Below are positions 3,857 through 17,830 of a DNA stretch of 20,089 nucleotides, piece by piece. Location of the stretch: positions 1 through 20,089 of the IMG/VR virus record IMGVR_UViG_3300021962_000844; one strand, written 5' to 3'. The stretch is from a virus. The notes beneath the pieces were generated by a model. It saw only the letters and a list, made by a program, of their open reading frames with translations. It was not told where the DNA came from and did no database searches. A program made the position numbers and the translations under genes. The stretch's first letter is position 1, and every line of letters begins with the position of its first letter.

Positions 3857-5614
3857 TTGACAAAAGAACAAGTATTACTCGAATATGCTAAGTGCTTAAA
3901 GAATACACCTTACGCGCTTAAAACTTATTTGCAAACATACGATAATACACAGTCAAGATATGTCCCTTTGGAATTATTTCCAGATCAGGTTCACCTGATT
4001 GAGGACTATGATACTTTTGAGGAAAATATCGCACTGAAGTACAGACAAGCAGGAGTGTCTACAGTTACTTCAGCATGGGCATCGAAAAGATTGGTTTTTG
4101 CAAAAAAAACTAAACCTGAAAAAATTCTGATTATCGCCAACAAGCAAGACACTGCAATTGAAATGGCAAATAAAATTCGTTCGTTTGTGGAGCAGTGGCC
4201 TTCATGGGTTGGGGTTGGTTTTTCTAATGAAAAAAATGCTCAAAAACATTTTAAATTAAGTAATGGTTGTGAAGTTAAAGCGGTTGCAACATCCAAAGAC
4301 GCTTTGCGTGGGTATACTCCCACGATATTGATATTTGACGAAGCCGCATACATTGATGCTGATGAAGATTTCTGGTCGGCATGTATGGCTTCCCTTTCTA
4401 CGGGTGGTAAAGTAATTGTAATTAGCACCCCTAACGGATTCGATCCAATATATTATGGAATCTACGAACAAGCACTCAGAGGTATGAATGATTTCAAGAT
4501 TACCGAAATGTTTTGGTATAGGGACCCGAGGTATTCCAAAGATTTGAAATTGTTAAAAGTGAAAGATATTGTCCATTACATGTTAAACAGAGAGGATTAC
4601 AAGGATGATGAAATAACTTTGGATTATAGTGATGTATCACCAAGAGAAAGAAATTTTGAAGAAATTAAAACAAAATTTAATGATGGTTATAAACCATACT
4701 CATCTTGGTTTGAATCTATGGCAAAAAAACTCAAGTTTGACAGAAGGAAAATCGCACAGGAATTAGAATGTAATTTTTTAGGTTCGGGTGATAGTGTTAT
4801 ACCTTCTGACACAATAGAAAGAATCAAAGAAAATTATATTACCAATCCTGAACATAAATTCATGGGAGGAGCTTTATGGCAGTGGAAAGAACCTGTAATG
4901 GGACATAAATACATTATGGGTATTGACGTATCTCGTGGTGATTCCGAAGATTTCACAACTTTTAGTATCATCGATTTTGATGAAAGAGAGCAGGTATTGG
5001 AATACTTAGGCAAAATTCCACCTGACGTTGCGGCTGAAGTTGCAATCAAATGGGCGGTTATGTATAACGCATTTGTGGTTATTGATATCACTGGGGGCAT
5101 GGGTGTATCAACTTCAAGGAAAATGCAGGAACTTGGGTACAAAAATCTATATGTTGATGGGGTTAATTTTGCTGACAAATGGAAATACAATCCAAAGGCG
5201 GATGAAAAGATACCTGGAATCAATTTTAATAGCAAAAGGGTTCAGATTGTCGCCGCATTCGAAGAGGCTTTGAGACATGGATTTAAAATAAGATCCAGCA
5301 GACTTTTGAACGAATTGAATACTTTTGTTTATGTTAATGGGCGTCCCGATCACCTTAAAGGGCAACATGACGATTTAATTATGGCTTGTGCAATGCCGAT
5401 ATATGTTGGTGAAACTTCATTTGCCCAACTTGACAAAGTCACTGAGGTTACAAAGGCTATGGTTGAAAGTTGGACTGTAAATTCTATACCCAATAACCAT
5501 GTTACTGACTTCGATCCGAATGTTCCTGTATTCCCAAATGAGAGACTGAGTCAATTCAACACTAACCCTACAAGAGAAGAGTATTTGAAGTATTCTTGGT
5601 TATTTGGCAAATAA
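3857..5614 (+). CDS. 17: Terminase large subunit, DNA-packaging ATPase and nuclease (T4 gp17-like)
   Basis: 585 residues, the packaging motor that pumps DNA into the prohead through the portal and cuts the concatemer. ATPase domain: a Walker A variant KYRQAGVST (61-69), Walker B ILIFDEAA (157-164, Asp161 and Glu162), and the coupling motif STPNG (190-194). Walker A lacks the usual GK[ST] lysine; Lys61 at the motif start may substitute, as in several phage terminases. Nuclease domain: Asp357 in MGIDVSRGD, Asp410 in VVIDITGG, and His504-Asp505-Asp506 in GQHDD, matching the acidic triad pattern of gp17. The start is a TTG. A stop lies in frame at 3848-3850, and the next in-frame ATG falls after Walker A, so an upstream start is needed. 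An ATG at 3844 is in another frame and terminates after 15 codons. Confidence 0.95.
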   Translation: MTKEQVLLEYAKCLKNTPYALKTYLQTYDNTQSRYVPLELFPDQVHLIEDYDTFEENIALKYRQAGVSTVTSAWASKRLVFAKKTKPEKILIIANKQDTAIEMANKIRSFVEQWPSWVGVGFSNEKNAQKHFKLSNGCEVKAVATSKDALRGYTPTILIFDEAAYIDADEDFWSACMASLSTGGKVIVISTPNGFDPIYYGIYEQALRGMNDFKITEMFWYRDPRYSKDLKLLKVKDIVHYMLNREDYKDDEITLDYSDVSPRERNFEEIKTKFNDGYKPYSSWFESMAKKLKFDRRKIAQELECNFLGSGDSVIPSDTIERIKENYITNPEHKFMGGALWQWKEPVMGHKYIMGIDVSRGDSEDFTTFSIIDFDEREQVLEYLGKIPPDVAAEVAIKWAVMYNAFVVIDITGGMGVSTSRKMQELGYKNLYVDGVNFADKWKYNPKADEKIPGINFNSKRVQIVAAFEEALRHGFKIRSSRLLNELNTFVYVNGRPDHLKGQHDDLIMACAMPIYVGETSFAQLDKVTEVTKAMVESWTVNSIPNNHVTDFDPNVPVFPNERLSQFNTNPTREEYLKYSWLFGK

Positions 5615-5641: not shown

Positions 5642-5662
5642 TATTTATTATAAAATTCGTAC
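5642..5662 (+). promoter_or_regulatory. Late promoter-like element before the portal gene
   Basis: The element TATTTATTATAAAA starts exactly 21 bases before the portal ATG. The same 14 bases at the same spacing occur on the minus strand before the gene starting at 17809. It contains TATAAAAT, close to the T4 late promoter TATAAATA. Promoter function is inferred from recurrence and position. Confidence 0.55.
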
Positions 5663-7510
5663 ATGGCAGATAATTTGACAGTTTGGCAAAGATTAAGTAA
5701 GGTTTTCGGTCCTGATTCTACACTGGATCAGCAGAGTCCTGTTTATCAATTTGATAAAAAGGAACTGTTGAGAACAACTTCCAAACAAGAGTACGAGAAA
5801 GAAAAACTTGAAGCACAGCAAACATTATATCTTGGACAACAATGGGCAAAGGTTGAAAGTAATCTCTACACCCAGTCTGTGTATTACGAACCAACAAGAC
5901 TTTCGGCGTTCTACGACTATGAGAGTATGGAATACACACCCGAGATATCCGCCGCTTTAGACATCTATGCAGAAGAATCTACAACCACAAATGAAAACGG
6001 TTTCATGTTGCAGATTTATTCTGAGTCTAAAAGAATCAAGTCAGTACTAGCCGATTTGTTCAACAATAAGTTGGATGTAAATACCAACCTACCAATGTGG
6101 ACAAGAAATACTTGTAAATACGGTGACAATTTTGTTTATCTGAAATTAGATCCTGAAAAGGGAGTTGTAGGTTGTCAACAACTACCAAACATTGAGTTGG
6201 AAAGAATTGAAAGGGGTATGAAGTATAAACCTTTAGATCAGAACAAACAAGGTGAGAGTAGAGGTTTAAAATTTACATGGAAAAACAAAGATTTGGAATT
6301 CAACACTTGGGAAATTGCACACTTCCGTCTTTTGGGTGATGATAGAAAATTACCCTACGGTACGTCAATGTTGGAAAAGGCTAGAAGAATTTGGAAACAA
6401 CTTCTTCTTTCTGAAGATGCAATGATGATATATCGTGTATCACGAGCGCCCGAAAGAAGAGTATTCAAAGTATTTGTTGGAAATATGGATGATAAAGATG
6501 TTGAACCATATGTACAACGTGTTGCTAATAAATTCAAAAGGGATACAGTGGTGGACAACAAAACGGGTAATGTTGATTTGAGATATAATCAAATGGCTGT
6601 CGATCAAGATTACTTCATTCCTGTAAGAGATCCGAATGCACCTAACCCTATTGATACACTACCAGGTGCTACAAACCTTTCAGAAATTGCTGACATTGAA
6701 TATATCCAAAAGAAATTACTTACAGCGTTAAGAGTACCAAAAGCTTTCTTAGGATTTGAAGAGGCGGTGGGTGATGGTAAAAACTTAGCTCTACAAGATA
6801 TACGATTCGCAAGAACTATCAATAAGATTCAAAAATCGATGATTCAAGAATTGAATAAGATTGCAATCATCCACCTTTATGTTTTGGGTTTTGAAGATGA
6901 ATTGGCTAACTTTACCTTATCATTGACAAACCCATCTACACAAGCAGATTTACTGAAGGTAGAAAATTGGCAACAAAAAATTCAACTGTATAAAGATGCT
7001 GTTGCTGATCCAGGAAATGGTATACAACCCGTTTCATCATCTTGGGCTAAAAAACATATTTTAGGGTTTTCGGATGAAGAAATTAAATTAGACATCCAAC
7101 AACAACGAATCGAAAAAGCAGTTGCATCTGAACTGGAAAAAACACCTGAAGTTATTATACACACAGGATTGTTCGATAACATCGATAAATTATATGGTAA
7201 GAAACCTGGAGAAGAGGCACCTGAAGGTGGTGGGGAAGATGAGGGTGGAATCGGAGATTTAGGTGCAGATTTGGGTGGTGATTTAGGAGCCGAATTAGGT
7301 GGTGCCGGAATTACTGACACCGGAGGTGCTGAAACTGAAACACCTGAAACCCCTGTTGGTGAAACAGTCCCCGAGTCTAAAGAAAAGGATTTGAATTTAA
7401 TTTTGGAAACAAACGATTTTTTACAAGAAGATTTAGAGATTGATTTGTCCAAGGCAAAAACTCCCTTGAGTGAGATTTCAAAAAAACTTGGTGAGTTATT
7501 AAATGAATGA
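5663..7510 (+). CDS. 20: Portal vertex protein (T4 gp20-like)
   Basis: 615 residues. It would form the dodecameric ring at one capsid vertex through which DNA enters, and would dock terminase and then the neck. The family signature is clear: YEPTRLSAFYDYESMEYTP followed by EISAALDIYAEEST (about residues 75-106), the Trp-Thr/Lys-Tyr-Gly-Asp-Asn stretch near 145-155, and about residues 358-392 with LRVPKAFLGF and DIRFARTINKIQKSMI, all typical of T4-type portals. Residues about 515-570 are a Gly/Glu/Pro-rich low-complexity tail and the last 40 residues are helical. The length is somewhat above T4 gp20 (about 520), mostly because of this C-terminal extension. It lies 48 bases after terminase and has its own promoter-like element. 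No Shine-Dalgarno precedes the ATG. Confidence 0.93.
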   Translation: MADNLTVWQRLSKVFGPDSTLDQQSPVYQFDKKELLRTTSKQEYEKEKLEAQQTLYLGQQWAKVESNLYTQSVYYEPTRLSAFYDYESMEYTPEISAALDIYAEESTTTNENGFMLQIYSESKRIKSVLADLFNNKLDVNTNLPMWTRNTCKYGDNFVYLKLDPEKGVVGCQQLPNIELERIERGMKYKPLDQNKQGESRGLKFTWKNKDLEFNTWEIAHFRLLGDDRKLPYGTSMLEKARRIWKQLLLSEDAMMIYRVSRAPERRVFKVFVGNMDDKDVEPYVQRVANKFKRDTVVDNKTGNVDLRYNQMAVDQDYFIPVRDPNAPNPIDTLPGATNLSEIADIEYIQKKLLTALRVPKAFLGFEEAVGDGKNLALQDIRFARTINKIQKSMIQELNKIAIIHLYVLGFEDELANFTLSLTNPSTQADLLKVENWQQKIQLYKDAVADPGNGIQPVSSSWAKKHILGFSDEEIKLDIQQQRIEKAVASELEKTPEVIIHTGLFDNIDKLYGKKPGEEAPEGGGEDEGGIGDLGADLGGDLGAELGGAGITDTGGAETETPETPVGETVPESKEKDLNLILETNDFLQEDLEIDLSKAKTPLSEISKKLGELLNE

Positions 7511-7531
7511 TATTTATAAAATAAAATATCT
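7511..7531 (+). promoter_or_regulatory. Late promoter-like element before the 243-residue gene
   Basis: TATTTATAAAATAAAA begins 21 bases before the ATG at 7532 and fills the whole intergenic gap after the portal stop. Same core and spacing as the copies before the portal, protease and the gene starting at 17809. Confidence 0.5.
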
Positions 7532-8263
7532 ATGAAATCGTTCGGACAAATTAAAAGTAATTTTGAAACTGCTTTAGTTAAAAACTATGGTAAAGACTCT
7601 TTCAAGTCTATAATCAAAAACTTTAAAACCGTTGTTTTGGAGAGTAAAAGTCTTTCTAAGATTTTTTATCTTTATGATGACTTATTGACAAAAAAGTCTT
7701 TGTCCGAAGAAGTTGCTGTTGAATATCTGAATGAAAGTTTATCAACCTTAAAAGATTTAATAGAGAAATCCAAAGGTGAAATAGAATCTCTCCAAATGTG
7801 GGTTGATACTTTGGTTGAAAGCGATTGTGAGAATCAATACATCAATATTGATACGGTATTATACTCAAATTCAGTAACAAAATTACAACAAGTTGCAGAG
7901 GCTAAACTTTCAATAAAAAAGTTAATCACTTCCAAAGATACAACAAAACTAAACGAGTCACTCAATTTACCATTATCTTCAATGTTGAGAATAGCGACAA
8001 ACACATTCAACAATGAGTATTCACATTTAAACGAACAAGACAAAACTACACTCAAACATTTGTTGTCTTTAAATAAAACTGAGTTAGTTGAAGAATACAA
8101 CAAAACCAAGGAAGAGGTAATGTCGAAGTTAAGTGAATCGTTGAGCTCAAGTGAAGATTCGGATTTGAAGGAAACAATTCAGCAGACAATTAACAAAATT
8201 AATGAGTCAGAAATCGAGCTTGTTTCTTTGTACAAACTAACGCAACTGAAGGAAAATCTTTAA
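7532..8263 (+). CDS. Putative prohead core protein (by position)
   Basis: 243 residues, almost wholly predicted helical, rich in Lys, Glu, Ser and Leu, with heptad-like stretches such as LIEKSKGEIESLQMWVDTL (about 77-95) and a C-terminal segment ETIQQTINKINESEIELVSL. There are no catalytic motifs, signal peptide or membrane segments. In T4 the genes between portal and protease (67 and 68) code for prohead core proteins, so the same role is a reasonable positional inference, but the sequence is not recognisable as gp67 or gp68. Its stop overlaps the stop of the reverse-strand bS21 gene in a shared TTAA at 8260-8263. Confidence 0.7.
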   Translation: MKSFGQIKSNFETALVKNYGKDSFKSIIKNFKTVVLESKSLSKIFYLYDDLLTKKSLSEEVAVEYLNESLSTLKDLIEKSKGEIESLQMWVDTLVESDCENQYINIDTVLYSNSVTKLQQVAEAKLSIKKLITSKDTTKLNESLNLPLSSMLRIATNTFNNEYSHLNEQDKTTLKHLLSLNKTELVEEYNKTKEEVMSKLSESLSSSEDSDLKETIQQTINKINESEIELVSLYKLTQLKENL

Positions 8264-8454
8264 TCCTGTTCTTTTGATTTTACGGAATTAGTATAGACTG
8301 CTTTAAGTTTATCTTTTCGTCTTTGTACTGATTTTTTTACAAATTCCTGTTTTTTTCTAAGATACTCTAATTGTTTAGTTTTTATAACTTTATACTTGTA
8401 TTTTTTGAGTGCCTTATCAATGTTTTCACCTTTTTTTATTTCGATGTGAATCAT
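8260..8454 (-). CDS. rpsU: Phage-encoded ribosomal protein bS21, Bacteroidota type
   Basis: 64 residues, the usual length of Bacteroidota bS21. The N-terminal part IKKGENIDKALKKYK matches the family pattern (acidic/Gly-Glu-Asn-Ile-Asp, then Ala-Leu-Lys-Arg-Tyr-Lys). Next come a Leu-Arg-x-Arg-type stretch, Phe-Val-Lys-Lys-Ser-Val, and the C-terminal KAVYTNSVK. Tyr54 sits where Bacteroidota bS21 has the tyrosine implicated in contacting and hiding the 16S anti-Shine-Dalgarno. The protein would join the 30S platform, possibly replacing host bS21. The gene faces against its neighbours, sits between the core-like gene and the protease, and has its own promoter-like element and no Shine-Dalgarno. 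Host rpsU in Flavobacterium is reported to carry a strong Shine-Dalgarno for autoregulation, so its absence here is notable. Identification is by recalled family pattern. Confidence 0.88.
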   Translation of the reverse strand: MIHIEIKKGENIDKALKKYKYKVIKTKQLEYLRKKQEFVKKSVQRRKDKLKAVYTNSVKSKEQD

Positions 8455-8473
8455 AATTTTTTTTTAATAAATA
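8455..8473 (-). promoter_or_regulatory. Late promoter-like element before phage bS21
   Basis: On the minus strand TATTTATTAAAAAAAAA begins 19 bases before the bS21 ATG at 8454. It shares TATTTATTA with the portal copy, with spacing two bases shorter than the commonest 21. No Shine-Dalgarno-like sequence lies between it and the start. Confidence 0.5.
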
Positions 8474-8556: not shown

Positions 8557-9012
8557 ATGAAAAAAGGAAAAACTTCCAAGATAAACTTGTTCGAAAAGGC
8601 AAAATGTCATTACGGAACAGTAGATTCTAAAAATTTTAAGTCCGTCTATATCGTTTTACAAAGTTGGGTTTGTCCAAAAAAAGAACTAGAACAATGGGAA
8701 AGAACAACTTCTAATTTACACAGAAAAATAAAACATACGGTATGTGAGGTATTGGACTCACTTTATTTCGATAAAAATTTTATTGTTGATTTGGATTTGA
8801 GAAGTAGTGGAATTCAAATGGAAAAACGAAGTTTTATGAATTTGGAAATTACTTTGTTTTTAAAAAATGAAGTTGATTTCAAAAGTCCAATTTTGAAAGA
8901 CAAACTAAAAACTATCATTAGTAGTGTTTATAAGTTTGACTTATTAGACTCTGAACATTTCTCACTTCATAAAACAAAAACAGAAAAAGCAATAGATATT
9001 CAAGATTTATGA
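8557..9012 (+). CDS. Hypothetical protein between bS21 and the prohead protease
   Basis: 151 residues, not recognised with confidence. It is basic and alpha/beta in appearance: a Lys-rich N-terminus, VYIVLQSWVCPKKELEQWE near residues 31-49, a helix with LHRKIKHTVCEVLDSL, the strand-like VDLDLRSSGIQMEKRSFMNL, then ITLFLKNEVDF and a helical end. The DLDLRSSG/KRSFMNLEITLF stretch looks like a conserved core. Unlike most neighbours, its upstream region carries a host-type promoter candidate, and the nearest TATTTAT-like sequence (CATTTAT, 8543-8549) is only 14 bases from the ATG. It may be expressed at a different time. The protease gene starts 22 bases downstream. Confidence 0.75.
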   Translation: MKKGKTSKINLFEKAKCHYGTVDSKNFKSVYIVLQSWVCPKKELEQWERTTSNLHRKIKHTVCEVLDSLYFDKNFIVDLDLRSSGIQMEKRSFMNLEITLFLKNEVDFKSPILKDKLKTIISSVYKFDLLDSEHFSLHKTKTEKAIDIQDL

Positions 9013-9013
9013 G

Positions 9014-9034
9014 TATTTATATAAAAAAAATTCT
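9014..9034 (+). promoter_or_regulatory. Late promoter-like element before the prohead protease
   Basis: TATTTATATAAAAAAAA begins exactly 21 bases before the protease ATG at 9035. It shares the fixed-position TATTTAT followed by an A-rich run with the portal, core-like and 17809 copies. Confidence 0.5.
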
Positions 9035-9760
9035 ATGAAAGTTTTAAGTCCGAATGAGATTGGTAAAGGAATTCTTATTGAATACGATGCGGGGCACGTA
9101 TCACCCTACGATACGAGAAATCTCGAAGTTTTAAGAGAACAAAAAACCCAACTCGATTATTCAAAACCTTTTGAATTCTATGCGGTTTTGCAAAAGTTTA
9201 ACACCCCTAATCGTAACGGAAGAATTTATCCCGAAAAAGTACTTAGAAGAGAAGCCGAAAATTACAAAAAAGCTATTGAAAAAGGGACTGCACTTTCTGA
9301 ATTAAACCATCCTGAATCTTCATTGATTGACTTAGATAGGGTATCACATATCATCACAGATATTTGGTGGGAAGGAAATGTTTTGATGGGTAAGTTAAAA
9401 TTATTGACATCTCCTGGTTTTCATGAAAGAGGTGTGATTTCTTGTAAAGGTGATATGGCGGCGAACTATCTAAGACAAGGTGTTACCATGGGCGTCTCAT
9501 CTAGAGGAGTCGGTTCACTTGTAAAAAAGGGAGAACAAAATGAAGTTCAAGACGATTTCGAATTAATTTGTTTTGACTTAGTGTCTTCCCCGTCAACTCC
9601 AGGTGCATATCTATTTTCCAACAAGGAAGACAGATACAAATATGACGAGAACTTAGAAGAAGAAAAAAAATTAAAAGATGAAAGAGTTATATCATCAACA
9701 TCTAAAATGGATAAGTCACTTGACTTAATGAAAAAATTATCAGATTATTTGGGAAATTAA
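9035..9760 (+). CDS. 21: Prohead core protease (T4 gp21-like)
   Basis: 241 residues, the serine protease that degrades scaffold and trims the capsid protein during prohead maturation. The N-terminal strand region is followed by FNTPNRNGRIYPEKVL (55-70), typical of T4-type and related phage proteases. Candidate catalytic residues are His92 in SELNHPES and Ser155 or Ser156 in MGVSSRGVGS. The conserved FDLVSSPSTPGAYLF with Asp181 completes the pattern. The C-terminal 45 residues are charged and probably form the self-cleaved or core-binding tail. It is placed before the scaffold and capsid genes as in T4. Its likely substrate site in the capsid protein is I-N-E at residues 58-60. Confidence 0.93.
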   Translation: MKVLSPNEIGKGILIEYDAGHVSPYDTRNLEVLREQKTQLDYSKPFEFYAVLQKFNTPNRNGRIYPEKVLRREAENYKKAIEKGTALSELNHPESSLIDLDRVSHIITDIWWEGNVLMGKLKLLTSPGFHERGVISCKGDMAANYLRQGVTMGVSSRGVGSLVKKGEQNEVQDDFELICFDLVSSPSTPGAYLFSNKEDRYKYDENLEEEKKLKDERVISSTSKMDKSLDLMKKLSDYLGN

Positions 9761-10085: not shown

Positions 10086-10116
10086 TAAACCAAAACGTTT
10101 GCAAAAAAAAATAAAG

Positions 10117-11649
10117 ATGAGTAATAAAGAAAAATCTTTAGTTGAAGAGGCATTACTACAAATGAAAAATTTGGAAGAAGCCGTTACACAAAACGCAAAA
10201 GGAATACTTGCTTCTACAATGAAGGAAGAAATCAAAGAATTAGTAAAAGAATCTCTTGAAGAAGAGATTGAAGAAGGAATGGAGATGAAAAGTTCAGAAG
10301 AAGAAAAAGAGTCAAATATGGCTGAACAAGCAGAAATGGAACTTGATATCGACGACACAGAAGAGGAATCTGATGAAGTAGAAAATGACGAAGAGGAAAT
10401 CGAGTTAGATTCTATGGATATCGATTCTGATGAATCTGACGAGGAAGAATTCGAACTTGGAATTGACGACGAGGAAGTTATGTTACCACTTGATTTGACA
10501 GGTGCATCTGATGAAGAAATTTTGAAGGTGTTCAAGGCAATGGGTGACGAAGACGGAATCATTGTTAAAAAGGACGGGGAAGAAATCCACTTGAAAGATG
10601 AGACTTCTGATGTTGAATATAAAATTGATCTTGGTGAGTCAGAAGAAGAGGAATCTATCGATGAAATGATGGATGACGATTTTGAAGATTTGGATGAAAT
10701 CGTTTATGAAATCGAACTCGATGAAGAAGAGGACGATGACGATGACGAGGAAGAAATGATGTCAGAAGAAAAAATGACAGTTTCTCCGAAAGGTGAAGGA
10801 ATGGGTAAACCTAAATTCAAGTATCCTTCTAAAATGAAGGGTGGTGTTACTGAAACTGAAGACATCGAAGAGATGACTGAAGGTGAAATGTCAGTAAAAC
10901 CAAAAGGTGAAGGAATGGGTAAACCTAAATTCAAGTATCCTTCTAAAATGAAGGGTGGTGTTACCGAAACCGAAGATGTCGAAGAAATGGAAGAAGAATG
11001 GGGAGGTAAGAAAGGTGATGACTCTAAGTCTCACAAAGATTACGAAACTACTGAAGAGTGGGGAGGTAAGAAAGGTGACGACTCTAAGTCTCACAAAGAT
11101 TACGAAACTACTGAAGAGTGGGGAGGTAAGAAAGGTGACGACTCTAAGTCTCACAAAGATTACGAAACTACTGAAGCTGCACGTACACTCGGAAACGGGA
11201 AAAGAAATGCAGCTAACAGACATTCTTTACCAAAAATGAAAGTAATTCCAAATCAAGCTCTAGCGGAAGAAGTTGAATCATTGAGAGCTAAAAATGACGA
11301 ATACAGAAAAGCTCTTAACATATTCAAAGACAAGCTCAACGAAGTTGCAGTATTCAATTCTAATCTCGCATATGCTGTTAGACTATTTACTGAAAACTCC
11401 ACGACTAAACAAGAAAAAATAAACATCCTAAGAAGATTCGACAATGTTGAAACTTTAAAGGAATCAAAAGCTCTTTATAAGACAATCAAAGATGAGTTGG
11501 TACCACAGTCAGTTGTTAGTGAGTCTGTTGAAACAAAATTACAACAAACACCAACTGCAGGTTCTTCAACAACTTTGATTGAGAGCAAAACTTATGAAAA
11601 TCCTCAATTCCAAAGAATGAAGGATTTGATGGGTAAATTAAATAAATAA
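10117..11649 (+). CDS. 22: Prohead scaffold/core protein (T4 gp22-like) with internal repeats
   Basis: 510 residues from the ATG at 10117; an in-frame TTG at 10099 would add six residues but is less likely. It forms the assembly core on which the capsid is built and is then degraded by the protease. The N-terminal 50 residues are helical (VEEALLQMKNLEEAV). Residues about 55-215 are extremely acidic. Two 38-residue basic repeats (216-291) and three 20-residue repeats (293-352) follow. The C-terminal 130 residues are the gp22-like part: a coiled coil LAEEVESLRAKNDEYRKAL, then NIFKDKLNEVAVFNSNLAYA and a helical region ending MKDLMGKLNK. The length is roughly double T4 gp22 (about 270), owing to the acidic and repeat regions. 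It directly precedes the capsid gene, as in T4. Confidence 0.85.
   Translation: MSNKEKSLVEEALLQMKNLEEAVTQNAKGILASTMKEEIKELVKESLEEEIEEGMEMKSSEEEKESNMAEQAEMELDIDDTEEESDEVENDEEEIELDSMDIDSDESDEEEFELGIDDEEVMLPLDLTGASDEEILKVFKAMGDEDGIIVKKDGEEIHLKDETSDVEYKIDLGESEEEESIDEMMDDDFEDLDEIVYEIELDEEEDDDDDEEEMMSEEKMTVSPKGEGMGKPKFKYPSKMKGGVTETEDIEEMTEGEMSVKPKGEGMGKPKFKYPSKMKGGVTETEDVEEMEEEWGGKKGDDSKSHKDYETTEEWGGKKGDDSKSHKDYETTEEWGGKKGDDSKSHKDYETTEAARTLGNGKRNAANRHSLPKMKVIPNQALAEEVESLRAKNDEYRKALNIFKDKLNEVAVFNSNLAYAVRLFTENSTTKQEKINILRRFDNVETLKESKALYKTIKDELVPQSVVSESVETKLQQTPTAGSSTTLIESKTYENPQFQRMKDLMGKLNK
10762..10989 (+). repeat. Two tandem 114-bp in-frame repeats in the scaffold gene
   Basis: Copies lie at 10762-10875 and 10876-10989. 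Each codes 38 residues with the basic core KGEGMGKPKFKYPSKMKGG followed by VTETED(I/V)EEM. The 5' quarter has diverged, while the core is nearly identical in DNA. They place Lys/Gly-rich patches inside a very acidic protein. Confidence 0.9.
10993..11172 (+). repeat. Three tandem 60-bp in-frame repeats in the scaffold gene
   Basis: Copies lie at 10993-11052, 11053-11112 and 11113-11172. Each codes EEWGGKKGDDSKSHKDYETT. Copies 2 and 3 are identical in all 60 bases; copy 1 differs at two synonymous third positions. This points to recent slippage or unequal recombination. Confidence 0.95.
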
Positions 11650-11670: not shown

Positions 11671-13473
11671 ATGGGAGCATTATTAGAATCAGGTCTTGTT
11701 GGTAACATCGGTCTTAAGCACTTGAAGGTTATCAAAGAAGACACAATCAACAAATGGGACAAATTAGGATTCCTTGAGGGTCTTAAAGGTCACTTAAAGG
11801 AAAACGTAGCTCAGTTATACGAAAACCAAGCTTCATACTTAATCAATGAGGCTGCGTCTACAACTGACTCAGGTTCATTCGAAACTGTAGTTTTCCCTAT
11901 CGTTAGAAGAGTTTTCTCTAAACTTTTAGCTAACGATATCGTATCAGTACAAGCTATGAACTTACCTATCGGTAAATTGTTCTACTTTGTACCAAAAATT
12001 CAAAACAGAGCAAATAACAGTCACTTCGCACCTATCGGAGCACCAAACGGTCCTACAGATCCAAACGTAGGTTACGGTACTGGTAAAAACCTTTACGATA
12101 GATTCTACGAAGGTACAGAACCAGGATTGGATCCTGAAGGTTTGTTCGATTACTCTAAAGGAGAATACTCAGCAAGAACTGTAAACTTGGTAACTCAAAG
12201 ATGGGTTGGTGATAGCTTATTAGCTTTCAACTACTTAGCAGATACAGAATACAGAAAAGTTCTTGTTGCAATGTCAGGTTTCAACAACGCAGGCGCTGGT
12301 AAACTTATCGGACCTGATGGTAACGAAATGGACAACGAAGCTTTCTTGGCGGGATTGACTATTAATGTTAATGGTAACTCAGCAATTAACTTCTTCTCAG
12401 GTATTACTGGTACTTCAGCAGTTTCAAACGGTAACTTGTTATTCAGAGTTGTAACACAACAATACGGTAAGGGTATCGTTCAGTATGGTTCACCAAACAC
12501 TGCAACTGTATTCCCAACTACTGGTAACGGTGGTACATACGACAACCTTTGTGATGCGAATGGTGTTATCTACTTGGAAATTGACACTCAAGTTCCATGT
12601 ACTGTAACTACTAATTCAATCGATGGTTATTCTGGTTTCACTACAGGTTCAGGTGCAACTAACGCTAATTCTGCGTTCACTGCAACTTACAGAATCTACA
12701 AAGAGTTGGAATTCGAAGATGCTATCGGTGAAGTTTCTTTCGACTTAGAGTCAGTAACTGTATCAGTTACAGAAAGAAAACTTAGAGCACAATGGTCTCC
12801 TGAATTAGCACAAGACGTTTCTGCATTCCACAACATCGACGCTGAAGCTGAATTAACAGCTTTATTGTCTGAGCAAGTTGCGGCAGAAATCGACCGTGAA
12901 ATCTTAAGAGACTTGAGAAAAGGTGCGGCTTGGAACCTACGTTGGGACTACAACGGATGGAAGAGAGGTACTACAGCTAATCCATTAACTCAGTACACTC
13001 AAAAAGACTGGAACCAAACTCTTATCACAGCTATCAACCAAATCTCTGCACAGATTCACAAATCTACATTGAGAGGTGGTGCTAACTGGATTGTTGTTTC
13101 TTCTGAAATCAGTGCTATCTTTGATGACTTGGAGTACTTCCACGTTTCAAACGCAGCTCCTGAGCAAGATCAATACAACATGGGTATTGAAAGAGTTGGT
13201 ACATTAGCAGGTAGATATCAAGTTTATCGTGATCCTTACTTCCCACCTAACACAGTATTGTTGGGACACAAAGGTACATCATTACTTGACACTGGTTACG
13301 TTTACGCACCATATGTACCTCTACAGTTGACTCCAACTATGTACAACCCATTCAACTTTACACCTATCAAGGGTATCATGACTAGATACGCTAAGAAGAT
13401 GGTTAACAACCGTTTCTATGGTAGAATCACAGTTGATGGTGTTAGAACATTCGACTTGAGAGAATTGAGATAA
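11671..13473 (+). CDS. 23: Major capsid protein (T4 gp23-like)
   Basis: 600 residues, the hexamer-forming shell protein with the HK97 fold. The family signature is clear: FETVVFPIVRRVFSKLLAND (70-89) followed by IVSVQAMNLPIGKLFYFVPK. Later come ERKLRAQWSPELAQDVSAFH with INAEAEL-type sequence (HNIDAEAELTALLSEQVAAE), and the C-terminal RVGTLAGRYQVYRDPY and ITRYAKK-like regions. A prosequence ends at a plausible gp21 site I58-N59-E60 before Ala61, giving a mature chain of about 540 residues. A Gly/Asn/Thr-rich stretch around 205-330 is probably a surface insertion. Codons favour AAC and TTC over AAT and TTT, unlike neighbours, as expected for the most highly expressed gene. It is 21 bases after scaffold and followed by a strong terminator. 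Confidence 0.96.
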   Translation: MGALLESGLVGNIGLKHLKVIKEDTINKWDKLGFLEGLKGHLKENVAQLYENQASYLINEAASTTDSGSFETVVFPIVRRVFSKLLANDIVSVQAMNLPIGKLFYFVPKIQNRANNSHFAPIGAPNGPTDPNVGYGTGKNLYDRFYEGTEPGLDPEGLFDYSKGEYSARTVNLVTQRWVGDSLLAFNYLADTEYRKVLVAMSGFNNAGAGKLIGPDGNEMDNEAFLAGLTINVNGNSAINFFSGITGTSAVSNGNLLFRVVTQQYGKGIVQYGSPNTATVFPTTGNGGTYDNLCDANGVIYLEIDTQVPCTVTTNSIDGYSGFTTGSGATNANSAFTATYRIYKELEFEDAIGEVSFDLESVTVSVTERKLRAQWSPELAQDVSAFHNIDAEAELTALLSEQVAAEIDREILRDLRKGAAWNLRWDYNGWKRGTTANPLTQYTQKDWNQTLITAINQISAQIHKSTLRGGANWIVVSSEISAIFDDLEYFHVSNAAPEQDQYNMGIERVGTLAGRYQVYRDPYFPPNTVLLGHKGTSLLDTGYVYAPYVPLQLTPTMYNPFNFTPIKGIMTRYAKKMVNNRFYGRITVDGVRTFDLRELR

Positions 13474-13930: not shown

Positions 13931-13968
13931 AAATAATTCTGAGATATTTATATTAATAAAGTTATTCT
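13931..13968. promoter_or_regulatory. Divergent promoter region with TATTTAT element
   Basis: These 38 bases separate two divergent starts. On the plus strand TATTTATATTAATAAAG begins at 13945, 24 bases before the ATG at 13969. On the minus strand the same DNA reads TATAAATA, identical to the T4 late promoter core, 15-22 bases upstream of the ATG at 13930. The near-palindromic element could serve both directions. Confidence 0.45.
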
Positions 13969-15648
13969 ATGAAAAATATAAAAGAAATGACAACAAGTCA
14001 AAGCGATGGTAAGTTTGAAGGTAAATTAGTTTTAGGAAAACGAAATTTCTCCAAAGAATTAGCACCCTTTGATATTACTTTAGAAGATACTTTAGAGCCT
14101 GAACCCATCCATGAGGACTTAGCAGTTTGGTTTGGTAAAAAAAAGAAACCTAAGGGAAGTAAACAACCTAAAGGTCCTTGGGTGGATATTTGTCGTAAAG
14201 AGGATGGAAAACATCCCCCGTGTGGTAGATCGACTTCAGATAAGGGTGCGTATCCAAAATGTAGAGCTGCGGGAGTTGCGGGTAAAATGTCCGATGCGGA
14301 AAAAAAGGCGGCTTGTGCACAAAAAAGACGTGCAGAAAAAAAGGACACTCAAACGGGAAAAGGACAAAAACCCATCATGACTTCCCACAAAAAAAGGAAA
14401 CCAAAAAAAGAATCTGTACGTGAATTGGCAATAAAAGTTCTTCAAAGTATTAATGAAGAAAAAAACATTGATATTAAACCGTCTTCACGTGTAGAAAAAA
14501 ATATCTGTGAAACAAAAAAGTTTTGTTCGGCACAAGGTCCAATAACATTCGGACAACTTAAATCAATCATTTCTTTTGCAATTAATAAAAGATTGGGGAT
14601 ACATATGGGGGAAGGTTTTATAAAAGCATTGATTAGGTTATTACCTTGGTTCATACCTCAAATTGCGGTGGCAGGTTTTGTTGGTTCTGCTATGAGAGCG
14701 GCTAACAAAATTATCAGCCCTACTTTGAAGGAAACTTCATCTTACAAAACATGGTGGGCAAAAACCATATTGAAACTTTTCAATTTAGTTGAGGGTGAAA
14801 TAAATGCTACAGATCCTTTTAGTAAAATTTTCTTTATTGGAGATGGATTGATGCATTTAATGACAGAAGAATCTAAAATCCAATTTGCTGAATATATTTC
14901 TGATCTTGTTTCTACGAAATCTGATGATGAAGTTGTTCCTGATTATTTTGTAGAAAATGAGTTAAGGAATTGGATTAATCAAAAGTTTTTAATAAACCCT
15001 CCTTTGTCAACTGTGTCTAATATTGACAGGATGGATGAAGTTAAAAAAGTAAAAATTACAAAAGAGAATTTTCAAGAATACATAGGTATATTTGAAAAAG
15101 ACAAAAAAGATATTGTAAAATTATCACTATCGGAAAATTCGAATCATTATTGTGAGTTATATTATCTTGATATGTTAGACAATGTAAAAAGTATATCCAT
15201 AGCCGAAAAGTTTTGTAGAACCTCGGAATATTTAATTGAATCCGAAAACGGAAAATATTCAGAAATAAATTTTGTACCACCTGTTTCGGTGAGTTCAGAG
15301 GCAAAAAAAGGTTTAGATTATCGAAAAAAAGCGGGAGGTAAAGGGGGACTAACACCTGCACAGGCAGCAGCATCAAATAGAAGTGGAGAAACTAAAAATT
15401 TAGGTTCAGGTGTGCAGAGAGCGGTAAATCTTAAAAATAGAACCAAGTTATCACCTTCCACAGTGAAAAGAATGAAAGCATTTTTTGATAGACATCAAAA
15501 AAACAAAACAATTAACCCTGAAAATAGAGGAACACCTTGGAACGACAAAGGATATGTTGCTTGGTTATTGTGGGGTGGTGATGCAGGTTATGCGTGGGCA
15601 AGAAAAGTCGTTAGACAAATGGAGACGGCAGACAAAAAGAAAAATTAA
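13969..15648 (+). CDS. Large mosaic protein with Cys/Lys module and C-terminal Trp-rich module, function unknown
   Basis: 559 residues built of distinct parts. Residues 57-125 are Lys-rich with four Cys (75, 85, 98, 116): GPWVDICRKEDGKHPPCGRS then YPKCRAAGVAGKMSDAEKK; this looks like the small module named DUF5872 (tentative). Residues 190-345 are a helical domain with a hydrophobic stretch IKALIRLLPWFIPQIAVAGF (218-237) and FVENELRNWINQKFLINPP (328-345). Residues 360-440 are mixed. The end (479-552) is SGVQRAVNLKNR, SPSTVKRMKAFFDRHQKNK and GYVAWLLWGGDAGYAWARKV, a module I believe recurs in other T4-like phage proteins. No catalytic site is evident. A virion-internal or DNA-associated role is possible. 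Its stop overlaps that of the reverse 53-residue gene in TTAA. Confidence 0.75.
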   Translation: MKNIKEMTTSQSDGKFEGKLVLGKRNFSKELAPFDITLEDTLEPEPIHEDLAVWFGKKKKPKGSKQPKGPWVDICRKEDGKHPPCGRSTSDKGAYPKCRAAGVAGKMSDAEKKAACAQKRRAEKKDTQTGKGQKPIMTSHKKRKPKKESVRELAIKVLQSINEEKNIDIKPSSRVEKNICETKKFCSAQGPITFGQLKSIISFAINKRLGIHMGEGFIKALIRLLPWFIPQIAVAGFVGSAMRAANKIISPTLKETSSYKTWWAKTILKLFNLVEGEINATDPFSKIFFIGDGLMHLMTEESKIQFAEYISDLVSTKSDDEVVPDYFVENELRNWINQKFLINPPLSTVSNIDRMDEVKKVKITKENFQEYIGIFEKDKKDIVKLSLSENSNHYCELYYLDMLDNVKSISIAEKFCRTSEYLIESENGKYSEINFVPPVSVSSEAKKGLDYRKKAGGKGGLTPAQAAASNRSGETKNLGSGVQRAVNLKNRTKLSPSTVKRMKAFFDRHQKNKTINPENRGTPWNDKGYVAWLLWGGDAGYAWARKVVRQMETADKKKN

Positions 15649-15833: not shown

Positions 15834-16298
15834 TTATTTTTTACCTGAACAATATTTTCCTGAACATTTTTTTTCACCATCTAAACCGGGCATAGTTCCT
15901 TTACATACTTGTACGGCGTAACCATTGGCATATGCAGAAGGGTAAACTTCAAATTTAGCCTTTGCTGCTGACTTACCCCGAGCACAAAGAGTTGTGTCCT
16001 TCTTTTTTTTCTTTTTTTTACCTTCCTCTAATTCAACAAAATCTACATATTGGGATTCTTTTTCCATTTCATTCTTAAAAAAGTCAAAAACCTGATCGAT
16101 GTTTGTCTTAGCTTCGGATATATGATCATCCGCCCAATCGTGCCCTCCTTGTAGTATTTCTTCTATCATGTCAGCATCCATTTCTAACATCATGTCGATT
16201 TGTCTTCTCATTTGTTTCAAATTACTGAAGAACATATAATTTTCAGTATAATTTTCTTTCAAAATTCTACGAATAGTGTTTCTTAGTTGTGCACTCAT
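15834..16298 (-). CDS. Small protein with helical N-terminal part and C-terminal Cys/Lys module
   Basis: 154 residues. Residues 1-80 are helical, starting LRNTIRRILKEN, then a Met/Asp-rich stretch and GGHDWADDHISEAKTNIDQVFDFF. A Lys-7 run (94-100) links to a compact module with four Cys (105, 132, 145, 150): LCARGKSAAKAKFEVYPSAY then ANGYAVQVCKG. That pattern is a recurring small module of T4-like marine phage proteins (tentatively DUF5872-like), related in style to residues 57-125 of the 13969 gene. It overlaps the upstream 504-residue gene by ATGA, so it is translationally coupled. Metal or nucleic-acid binding is a guess from the Cys and Lys content. Confidence 0.75.
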   Translation of the reverse strand: MSAQLRNTIRRILKENYTENYMFFSNLKQMRRQIDMMLEMDADMIEEILQGGHDWADDHISEAKTNIDQVFDFFKNEMEKESQYVDFVELEEGKKKKKKKDTTLCARGKSAAKAKFEVYPSAYANGYAVQVCKGTMPGLDGEKKCSGKYCSGKK

Positions 16299-17809
16299 AT
16301 TTTGTTTACAATTTGGAATGTTAATTCTCTTTTATAAGTATTTGTTTCATAATCAGAAAGTACTTTTATATCAACATAATATTGATTGGGAACTTTATCT
16401 CTTGTGTCGAATATGAAATAATAGGCGTCAGGAGTTCGGTTAATTCGTGTCCAATCCTGAACTTGAACTTCTGTGTTAGCACCCTCTCGTACATACACCC
16501 GGTAATATGCCTGAACATCATTCAGAACTTCATTTGTTGTATATGCTTTTTTTATTGTAACATTAACCTTACGAACGTCAGTATTTAATATTTTTTCGTT
16601 TTGTTTTATACCCGAAAAATCGAAACCGTATATTGATGGATCTTTTGTGGATGAACCAATTTGGTAGTAACCTGTACTCTGCTTTATGACAAATTCATTA
16701 GTGACTAATCCAACATCAACACCATTTATTGTAATACCACTCCACTGATCATAAAACATACAAGGAGTTGTCTGTCCTGTAATAATTGGTACACTAACCT
16801 CATATACCCCTTCAGTCACTAAACAAGTGGATAATCCCGTATAACTACTACCCAAATATTCTTCATTTGAATTCAAGATGTTCACAATAGGTAGATTGTC
16901 AAAGTTTGTGGGTTGTCCATTTATGTATGAATAAAGATAAAGTTTGTTGACTTTATTTTGATAAAATGAATTTCGGTCATCTAAAATTAAATCGTCGTAA
17001 TTTGTTTCTAAAAATGGCTCATAGAAAGTTTGGGTATGACGAGTAAAGAATCCAACTGAATAATTCTCCGTTAACCCTGAGATATTTTCAATTGCAGGTA
17101 CATATGCAATACCCCAACCTGTAAATCCTGAAGTGTTTCCTGTCAAAACTTCATTTATTTCATTTGTCATGTCGAATTCTATGTTTTCGTTTCCGAATTC
17201 GAAATGTTGTGTTGCCACAATGGTAAGTCCCGAGTAATTGTAACAACTGTCACCTGATAAAGAATTGGTGTTGTCATAAATTCCGGGTTGTCCCCAATTT
17301 GACACTGTCTCTGATTGGTACCAGTTCGACGGACGACTTGAAAAACTTTTGTCTGTTTCTAATGCTAAAGATATTGTTGAACCATTACTCGAGTTCAAAT
17401 TTGTTGCGGAATTGTAGTAATCATAACCAACACCTTCGTCCCAAGTTTGTCCTGAACCTGTACAACCCGAAACAGGGATTCTGAAAAGAATTAAATCAAA
17501 TGAAGTTGCCCTTCTTCTACCTTCAGATGTTGTGGTGTTCAATAACTCAGTGTCAAAAGCGGACGTGTTCGTCATTTTTAACGTGTGTGAGACGCTTTTA
17601 CTACAACCTGTAGAAATTGTACCATTATAATATAATTGTCTCAGTTGCGACAAATCAATGTCAAAAATGAATCTACTAAATCCTATTGGGGAACTCAAAT
17701 CTTGAACACCTCCATAAAAAAGTTCTGTCACAGGGTTTCTCCCTGTGTTAGTATATGAATTGGATATTATGGTGTTATTTCTATTGAAATAGGATCTGAA
17801 AATTGACAT
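16295..17809 (-). CDS. Probable tail or baseplate-associated structural protein
   Basis: 504 residues, beta-rich, with high Asn, Thr, Ser, Gly and Tyr and few Lys/Glu clusters, typical of phage fibre or baseplate-decoration proteins. The N-terminal part FRSYFNRNNTIISNSYTNTG followed by FSRFIFDIDLSQLRQ (44-58) looks like a conserved attachment region. A stretch at 202-236 (FEFGNENIEFDMTNEINEV, then GWGIAYVPAIE) recalls DNRLRE/CBM-like jelly-roll repeats of secreted proteins, but only weakly. The C-terminal third has Ig- or fibronectin-like alternating strands and ends ELTFQIVNKI. There is no signal peptide. It has the best-conserved TATTTAT element upstream and overlaps the next gene by ATGA. 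Exact role unknown. Confidence 0.75.
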   Translation of the reverse strand: MSIFRSYFNRNNTIISNSYTNTGRNPVTELFYGGVQDLSSPIGFSRFIFDIDLSQLRQLYYNGTISTGCSKSVSHTLKMTNTSAFDTELLNTTTSEGRRRATSFDLILFRIPVSGCTGSGQTWDEGVGYDYYNSATNLNSSNGSTISLALETDKSFSSRPSNWYQSETVSNWGQPGIYDNTNSLSGDSCYNYSGLTIVATQHFEFGNENIEFDMTNEINEVLTGNTSGFTGWGIAYVPAIENISGLTENYSVGFFTRHTQTFYEPFLETNYDDLILDDRNSFYQNKVNKLYLYSYINGQPTNFDNLPIVNILNSNEEYLGSSYTGLSTCLVTEGVYEVSVPIITGQTTPCMFYDQWSGITINGVDVGLVTNEFVIKQSTGYYQIGSSTKDPSIYGFDFSGIKQNEKILNTDVRKVNVTIKKAYTTNEVLNDVQAYYRVYVREGANTEVQVQDWTRINRTPDAYYFIFDTRDKVPNQYYVDIKVLSDYETNTYKRELTFQIVNKI

Positions 17810-17830
17810 TACAAACTTTTATAATAAATA
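17810..17830 (-). promoter_or_regulatory. Late promoter-like element before the 504-residue gene
   Basis: On the minus strand TATTTATTATAAAA begins 21 bases before the ATG at 17809. It is identical over 14 bases and in spacing to the element before the portal gene on the other strand at 5642. This pair is the strongest evidence for the motif. Confidence 0.6.

Follow-up and report, generated by a model that had tools for sequence, protein, structure and literature searches.

The closest described cellular system to the gene reported here is the autoregulated rpsU of the Flavobacteriales. In Flavobacterium johnsoniae, rpsU is controlled by its own product, bS21, through an extended Shine-Dalgarno (SD) sequence that is read by bS21-free ribosomes (McNutt et al. 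2023, PMC9976891). A Y54A substitution lifts an F. johnsoniae rpsU reporter 3-fold, indicating that residue 54 matters; bS21 is essential in this organism, and without it ribosomes are poorer at initiating on messages that have no SD (PMC9976891). The same study discusses phage bS21 and suggests the circuit as a possible counter-defence.

Phages that encode bS21 have also been described. Chen et al. 2022 (PMC9723584) presented 47 phage genomes, predicted to infect Bacteroidota, in which bS21 is reversed in a block of terminase, portal, protease and capsid genes. In that study, all phage bS21 proteins have an aromatic residue at position 54, Tyr54 is proposed to stack on A1534 and block the anti-SD, the N-terminal helix is divergent and placed where mRNA would bind, and metatranscriptomes show bS21 transcribed with late genes. 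A phage-encoded bS21 from a different host group, that of Pelagibacter phage HTVC008M, entered E. coli ribosomes but left them about 5% active (Mizuno et al. 2019, PMC6375957). The link between phage bS21 and the anti-SD switch, which a sequence-only reading of the present locus had offered as new, is therefore largely in print already, both in Chen et al. 2022 and in McNutt et al. 2023. The present analysis describes a further member of the published group, puts numbers on the SD contrast and proposes that a promoter accounts for the leader. Neither the SD contrast nor the promoter motif is reported in the sections of Chen et al. 2022 consulted, and the open-licence papers searched do not state that the SD of host rpsU is missing from phage bS21 leaders.

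The window, as we call the whole stretch analysed, comprises 20,089 nucleotides of viral DNA and matches a 72,885-base viral contig with 100% identity throughout, at bases 26589-46677 of the latter. The bS21 gene (8260-8454, minus strand) lies reversed between the portal gene with its follower and the prohead protease gene, with terminase and capsid genes flanking. On the plus strand are a T4-type terminase large subunit (3857-5614; PF03237, E 6e-14; phrog_2, E 6e-38), a portal protein of the T4 gp20 type (5663-7510; PF07230, E 1e-80), a prohead protease of the gp21 type (9035-9760; PF03420, E 1e-23) and a major capsid protein of the gp23 type (11671-13473; PF07068, E 1e-72). The convergent neighbor of bS21 (7532-8263, plus strand; 243 aa), whose 3′ end overlaps the bS21 stop, is functionally unassigned, with no confident Pfam family and a weak PHROG tail-fiber match (E 0.002). 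The divergent neighbor (8557-9012, plus strand; 151 aa) has no match in Pfam or PHROG; of 33 distinct phage loci (including L281-L285), 32 have a divergent ORF of about 146-153 codons 94-122 nt from bS21, and the window copy may correspond to the co-transcribed bS21_CN (fam498) that Chen et al. 2022 describe. The gene at 10099-11649 carries in-frame direct repeats (10786-11176) that encode EEWGGKKGDDSKSHKDYETT and KPKGEGMGKPKFKYPSKMKGGVTETED units. The window resembles the phages of Chen et al. 2022 in the reversed bS21 within a block of TerL, portal, protease and MCP genes, in the retained Tyr54, in N-terminal divergence from the host protein, in a proposed late expression and in the separate clustering of phage and host bS21; five clades are described there, and we found no difference in kind.

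The proposal that the reverse gene encodes a 64-residue bS21 of the Bacteroidota type that keeps Tyr54 was confirmed from the sequence by profile, homology and fold comparisons. Translation from the ATG (8454-8452, minus strand) yields MIHIEIKKGENIDKALKKYKYKVIKTKQLEYLRKKQEFVKKSVQRRKDKLKAVYTNSVKSKEQD, with Tyr at position 54 and a phage-type segment, YKYKVIKTKQ, at residues 19-28. The span considered in the sequence-only reading (8260-8473) corresponds to this gene together with 19 bases of leader, at whose far end stands a TATTTAT motif. A Pfam profile search returned PF01165 (Ribosomal_S21) at 41.4 bits against a curated cut-off of 27 (E 1.1e-10). The closest relative of solved structure is F. 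johnsoniae bS21 (7jil; E 2.9e-10), which aligns without gaps over residues 1-60 and places Y54 on Y54, and the protein joins Tyr54 to the GENIDxALKxYK-type N-terminus characteristic of Bacteroidia. An AlphaFold2 model (pLDDT 83, pTM 0.39) shows the helices of the bS21 fold, at residues 12-26, 28-36 and 41-63. With this model as query, all ten Foldseek matches were bS21-sized chains from ribosome structures (query-normalized TM 0.51-0.70); the best E was just 0.079, such weak values being expected at 64 residues.

For comparison, viral loci were collected with the window protein (69) and with the F. johnsoniae protein (21), the two sets partly overlapping, and host loci comprised 80 whose bS21 is closely related to that of F. 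johnsoniae and 90 from a class-wide search of the Bacteroidia. Position 54 is Tyr in 34 of the 35 distinct phage proteins and His in the remaining one; among 138 distinct host proteins, 131 have Tyr there. Nearly fixed differences between phage and host lie in the N-terminal half, namely K8 versus D/E, Y21 versus K/R, V23 versus F, I24 versus D/E, K27 versus G, Q28 versus T/V, and E/D/N30 versus K/R; these agree with the divergent positions that Chen et al. 2022 give. A tree of 136 bS21 proteins, built on 64 columns and poorly resolved in its inner branching, places 34 of the 35 phage proteins in one clade (SH-aLRT 99) apart from all hosts.

The sole phage protein outside this clade, L151 (contig IMGVR_UViG_3300002520_000085), is nested among host bS21 and is 77% identical to that of F. 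johnsoniae. Its residue 54 is His, its leader carries the TAnnTTTG element of host genes, and its neighbors lie on the same strand; it may represent a separate acquisition or a host fragment. The tree does not serve to assign a host, since the phage clade nests in no host group or family. The bS21 type and the SD-less genes of the window phage fit a Bacteroidota host. The better portal matches among isolated phages include a Flavobacterium phage (37% identity), which a Microcystis phage outranks, and a protein search of the isolated-phage collection gave only three distant bS21 matches, in unannotated metagenomic phages. The T4-like Microcystis phage Mel-JY01 (PP395634.1) has an annotated RpsU (L309:22183-22410) on the same strand as its late genes; by eye, this protein has no tyrosine at the Tyr54 place, and its leader includes an AAAAGGA stretch.

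These protein differences bear on the first of three alternatives, proposed by Chen et al., in which phage bS21 would use its altered N-terminal half to re-specialize ribosomes toward phage messages, anti-SD hiding being kept without being the point. The nearly fixed residues, the well-supported phage clade of 34 and the placement of the N-terminal helix by Chen et al. (PMC9723584) where mRNA would bind all point toward such a role. However, YKVIKTKQ was one of the six patterns used in the locus search, which somewhat inflates the apparent conservation of this segment, although some loci recovered with host-based patterns (L157, L161) keep it or nearly so. On balance we regard this alternative as possible but doubtful.

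SD potential was measured by pairing the 25 bases upstream of each start codon with the anti-SD tail UCACCUCCUUUCU in ViennaRNA duplexfold. The window bS21 leader scored +1.6 kcal/mol and contains no SD. Across 37 distinct phage bS21 leaders the median was 0.0 and the strongest value -4.2 kcal/mol, whereas the 55 distinct Flavobacterium rpsU leaders all contain a strong SD (median -19.8, weakest -18.4 kcal/mol). The extended SD that defines the autoregulated circuit, taken as pairing below -13 kcal/mol, was absent from the window gene and from all 37 phage leaders; the phage gene thus shares with Flavobacteriales rpsU (PMC9976891) its protein family and the position of Tyr54, and differs in this defining element. 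The contrast with Flavobacterium is complete, yet phage bS21 resembles the other genes of these phages, which overall show no SD excess over mock windows; in the parent contig, 7 of 84 genes reached -7 kcal/mol, versus 10 of 84 mock windows. The sequence-only reading was accordingly right that this gene, like the phage's own messages, is SD-less. Beyond Flavobacterium, the class-wide Bacteroidia leaders (n=90) had a median of -2.25 kcal/mol and only 20% fell below -9, a figure that is not a phylum-wide rate because the set was drawn from the higher-scoring Pfam matches. McNutt et al. 2023 (PMC9976891) report a strong rpsU SD in about 80% of Flavobacteriales and in none of the Bacteroidales.

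The absence of any SD excess across the phage genomes accords with a second alternative, in which the gene simply supplies bS21 to complete 30S subunits during host shut-off and being SD-less is the phage default, with no selectivity or regulatory meaning. That bS21 is essential in F. johnsoniae, and that ribosomes without it start more poorly on SD-less messages (PMC9976891), also speak for it, and the promoter placement described below leaves scant room for an SD. Residues that are nearly fixed in phages and differ from those of hosts, along with a phage clade that has long evolved separately, hint at a role beyond the supply of copies, and we hold this alternative, too, only tentatively.

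The motif TATTTAT, 19 nt upstream of the bS21 ATG (8467-8473, minus strand), is probably the core of a phage late promoter, judging from its distribution. Of the 41 distinct leaders of phage bS21, 40 contain it, with its first base 13-30 bases from the ATG, and the one leader without it is that of L151, whose bS21 is close to the host protein. Only 3 of 170 host leaders contain it, and 148 of the 170 carry TAnnTTTG, the host promoter element that TATTTAT replaces in the phage gene. Within the window it precedes 5 of 18 genes (P 7e-8), bS21 being left out of the test because the motif was first noticed there. It lies 21 nt upstream of the portal gene (5642-5648, plus strand), the gene at 7532-8263 (7511-7517, plus strand), the prohead protease gene (9014-9020, plus strand) and the gene at 16295-17809 (17824-17830, minus strand), and 24 nt upstream of the gene at 13969-15648 (13945-13951, plus strand). 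This sharing of the motif with portal, prohead protease and other late genes supports late expression of the window bS21, and the late-gene setting proposed for it earlier is likewise supported.

When all 7-mers were ranked in five large bS21-phage contigs, TATTTAT came top at -13 to -11 (60 genes, 88-fold) and again at -27 to -18 (62 occurrences, 27-fold). The enrichment at about -12 and about -21 is seen in L171-L190 and L287-L302 and covers structural genes, and genes of the -21 class have an A-rich run 11-14 bases past the motif start. TATAAAT, also considered as a late promoter, is only weakly present upstream in the sense strand and is not concentrated there as TATTTAT is. In open-licence papers we found no report of TATTTAT enrichment in these phages. 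Read as a -10-like element, TATTTAT at -12 would make the message leaderless, whereas at about -21 some 9 bases of leader would remain; over all the spacings, predicted leaders are about 7-12 nt long or absent; for the window bS21, transcription is predicted to start near 8461, leaving a leader of about 7 nt (AAAAATT). By comparison, 87% of predicted F. johnsoniae transcripts have leaders of over 10 nt, with a mean of 33 (PMC6847099). Flavobacterium phage immuto also has the motif before 4 genes at -13 to -11 and 17 genes at -31 to -18, and no bS21 annotation was found in the stretches examined; the motif is thus not tied to bS21 and is a wider feature of such phages, and a tie between bS21 carriage and leaderless-like late genes is not established. 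The weakest alternative, that TATTTAT is a translation signal in the message leader, draws on its favored distances from start codons and is improbable given that two distance classes (about -12 and about -21) have one core, that -12 is exactly where the -10 element of a leaderless message would lie, and that the reverse-strand bS21 is preceded by the motif just as the forward late genes are.

The T4 late promoter consists of a TATAAATA core recognized with the sigma factor gp55. The present phages resemble T4 in their T4-type head genes and in a short core element placed just upstream of late genes, and differ in the core itself; TATAAATA was not found in the sense strand as a T4-type late promoter, its place being taken by TATTTAT, a sequence that occurs within the T4 core when the latter is read as its reverse complement. 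A further likeness is an ORF with weak gp55 similarity in five larger relatives of the window phage that also carry TATTTAT (L173:9381-10142 and L183:7612-8367, minus strand; L301:8622-9377, L179:6832-7590 and L289:15401-16156, plus strand). Matches to phrog_234 (gp55-type) were weak, with per-genome E from 9e-5 to 6e-3, library-wide E of 0.014-0.078 in four of the five and an hhalign E of 0.009 at a probability of 5%; G013 had none. This ORF of 251-253 aa is conserved in the five large bS21 phages and is a candidate sigma factor for TATTTAT. As another late-sigma candidate, phrog_12791 had no match anywhere.

Taken together, these observations suggest a late replacement bS21, made outside the SD-based control of the host, that keeps the anti-SD hidden; in our estimation this reading has an even chance of being correct. 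The phage protein would be made late and join host 30S subunits, probably displacing host bS21, and its Tyr54 would tuck away the 16S 3′ tail, such that ribosomes stay blind to SD sites, a state that would suit phage messages lacking SDs. With the putative promoter so near the ATG, the bS21 message would have a leader of only about 7 nt, and the host feedback, which needs an extended SD and bS21-free ribosomes, could not act on such a near-leaderless, SD-free message. By filling bS21-free ribosomes, the phage protein should also keep the host rpsU message off. The sequence itself establishes the bS21 identity, Tyr54, the lack of an SD and a promoter-like motif common to other late genes; ribosome entry, anti-SD hiding by this protein, the start site and the effect on feedback are inferences.

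Escape from host feedback, which the sequence-only reading had drawn from the missing SD, is thus plausible, and the contrast with Flavobacterium on which it depends is real. The case for an evolved escape is weaker than that reading implied, because SD-less is the default across all genes of these phages, because a strong SD is also missing from most of the rpsU genes sampled outside Flavobacterium, and because the predicted leader could hardly hold an SD; the missing SD probably follows from the placement of the promoter close to the ATG. Against the late-replacement reading, genes without an SD are the rule in these phages and for most genes of Bacteroidota, so that its absence may be no adaptation, and a host whose rpsU lacks a strong SD would present no feedback to escape. 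The low activity that HTVC008M bS21 left in E. coli ribosomes (PMC6375957) also speaks against it. A more elaborate version, in which the feedback-exempt protein locks host rpsU off and its altered N-terminal half aids 30S starts on leaderless or near-leaderless TATTTAT late messages, seems unlikely to us as a whole.

Flavobacteriales ribosomes hide their anti-SD, and its exposure is used almost only for the control of bS21. If a phage provides the protein and is exempt from this control, it would offer a clean natural test of ribosome-composition switching in infection. With the SD contrast and the predicted very short leaders, an idea so far discussed in broad terms yields precise predictions, for which existing F. 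johnsoniae strains are suited as a test system.
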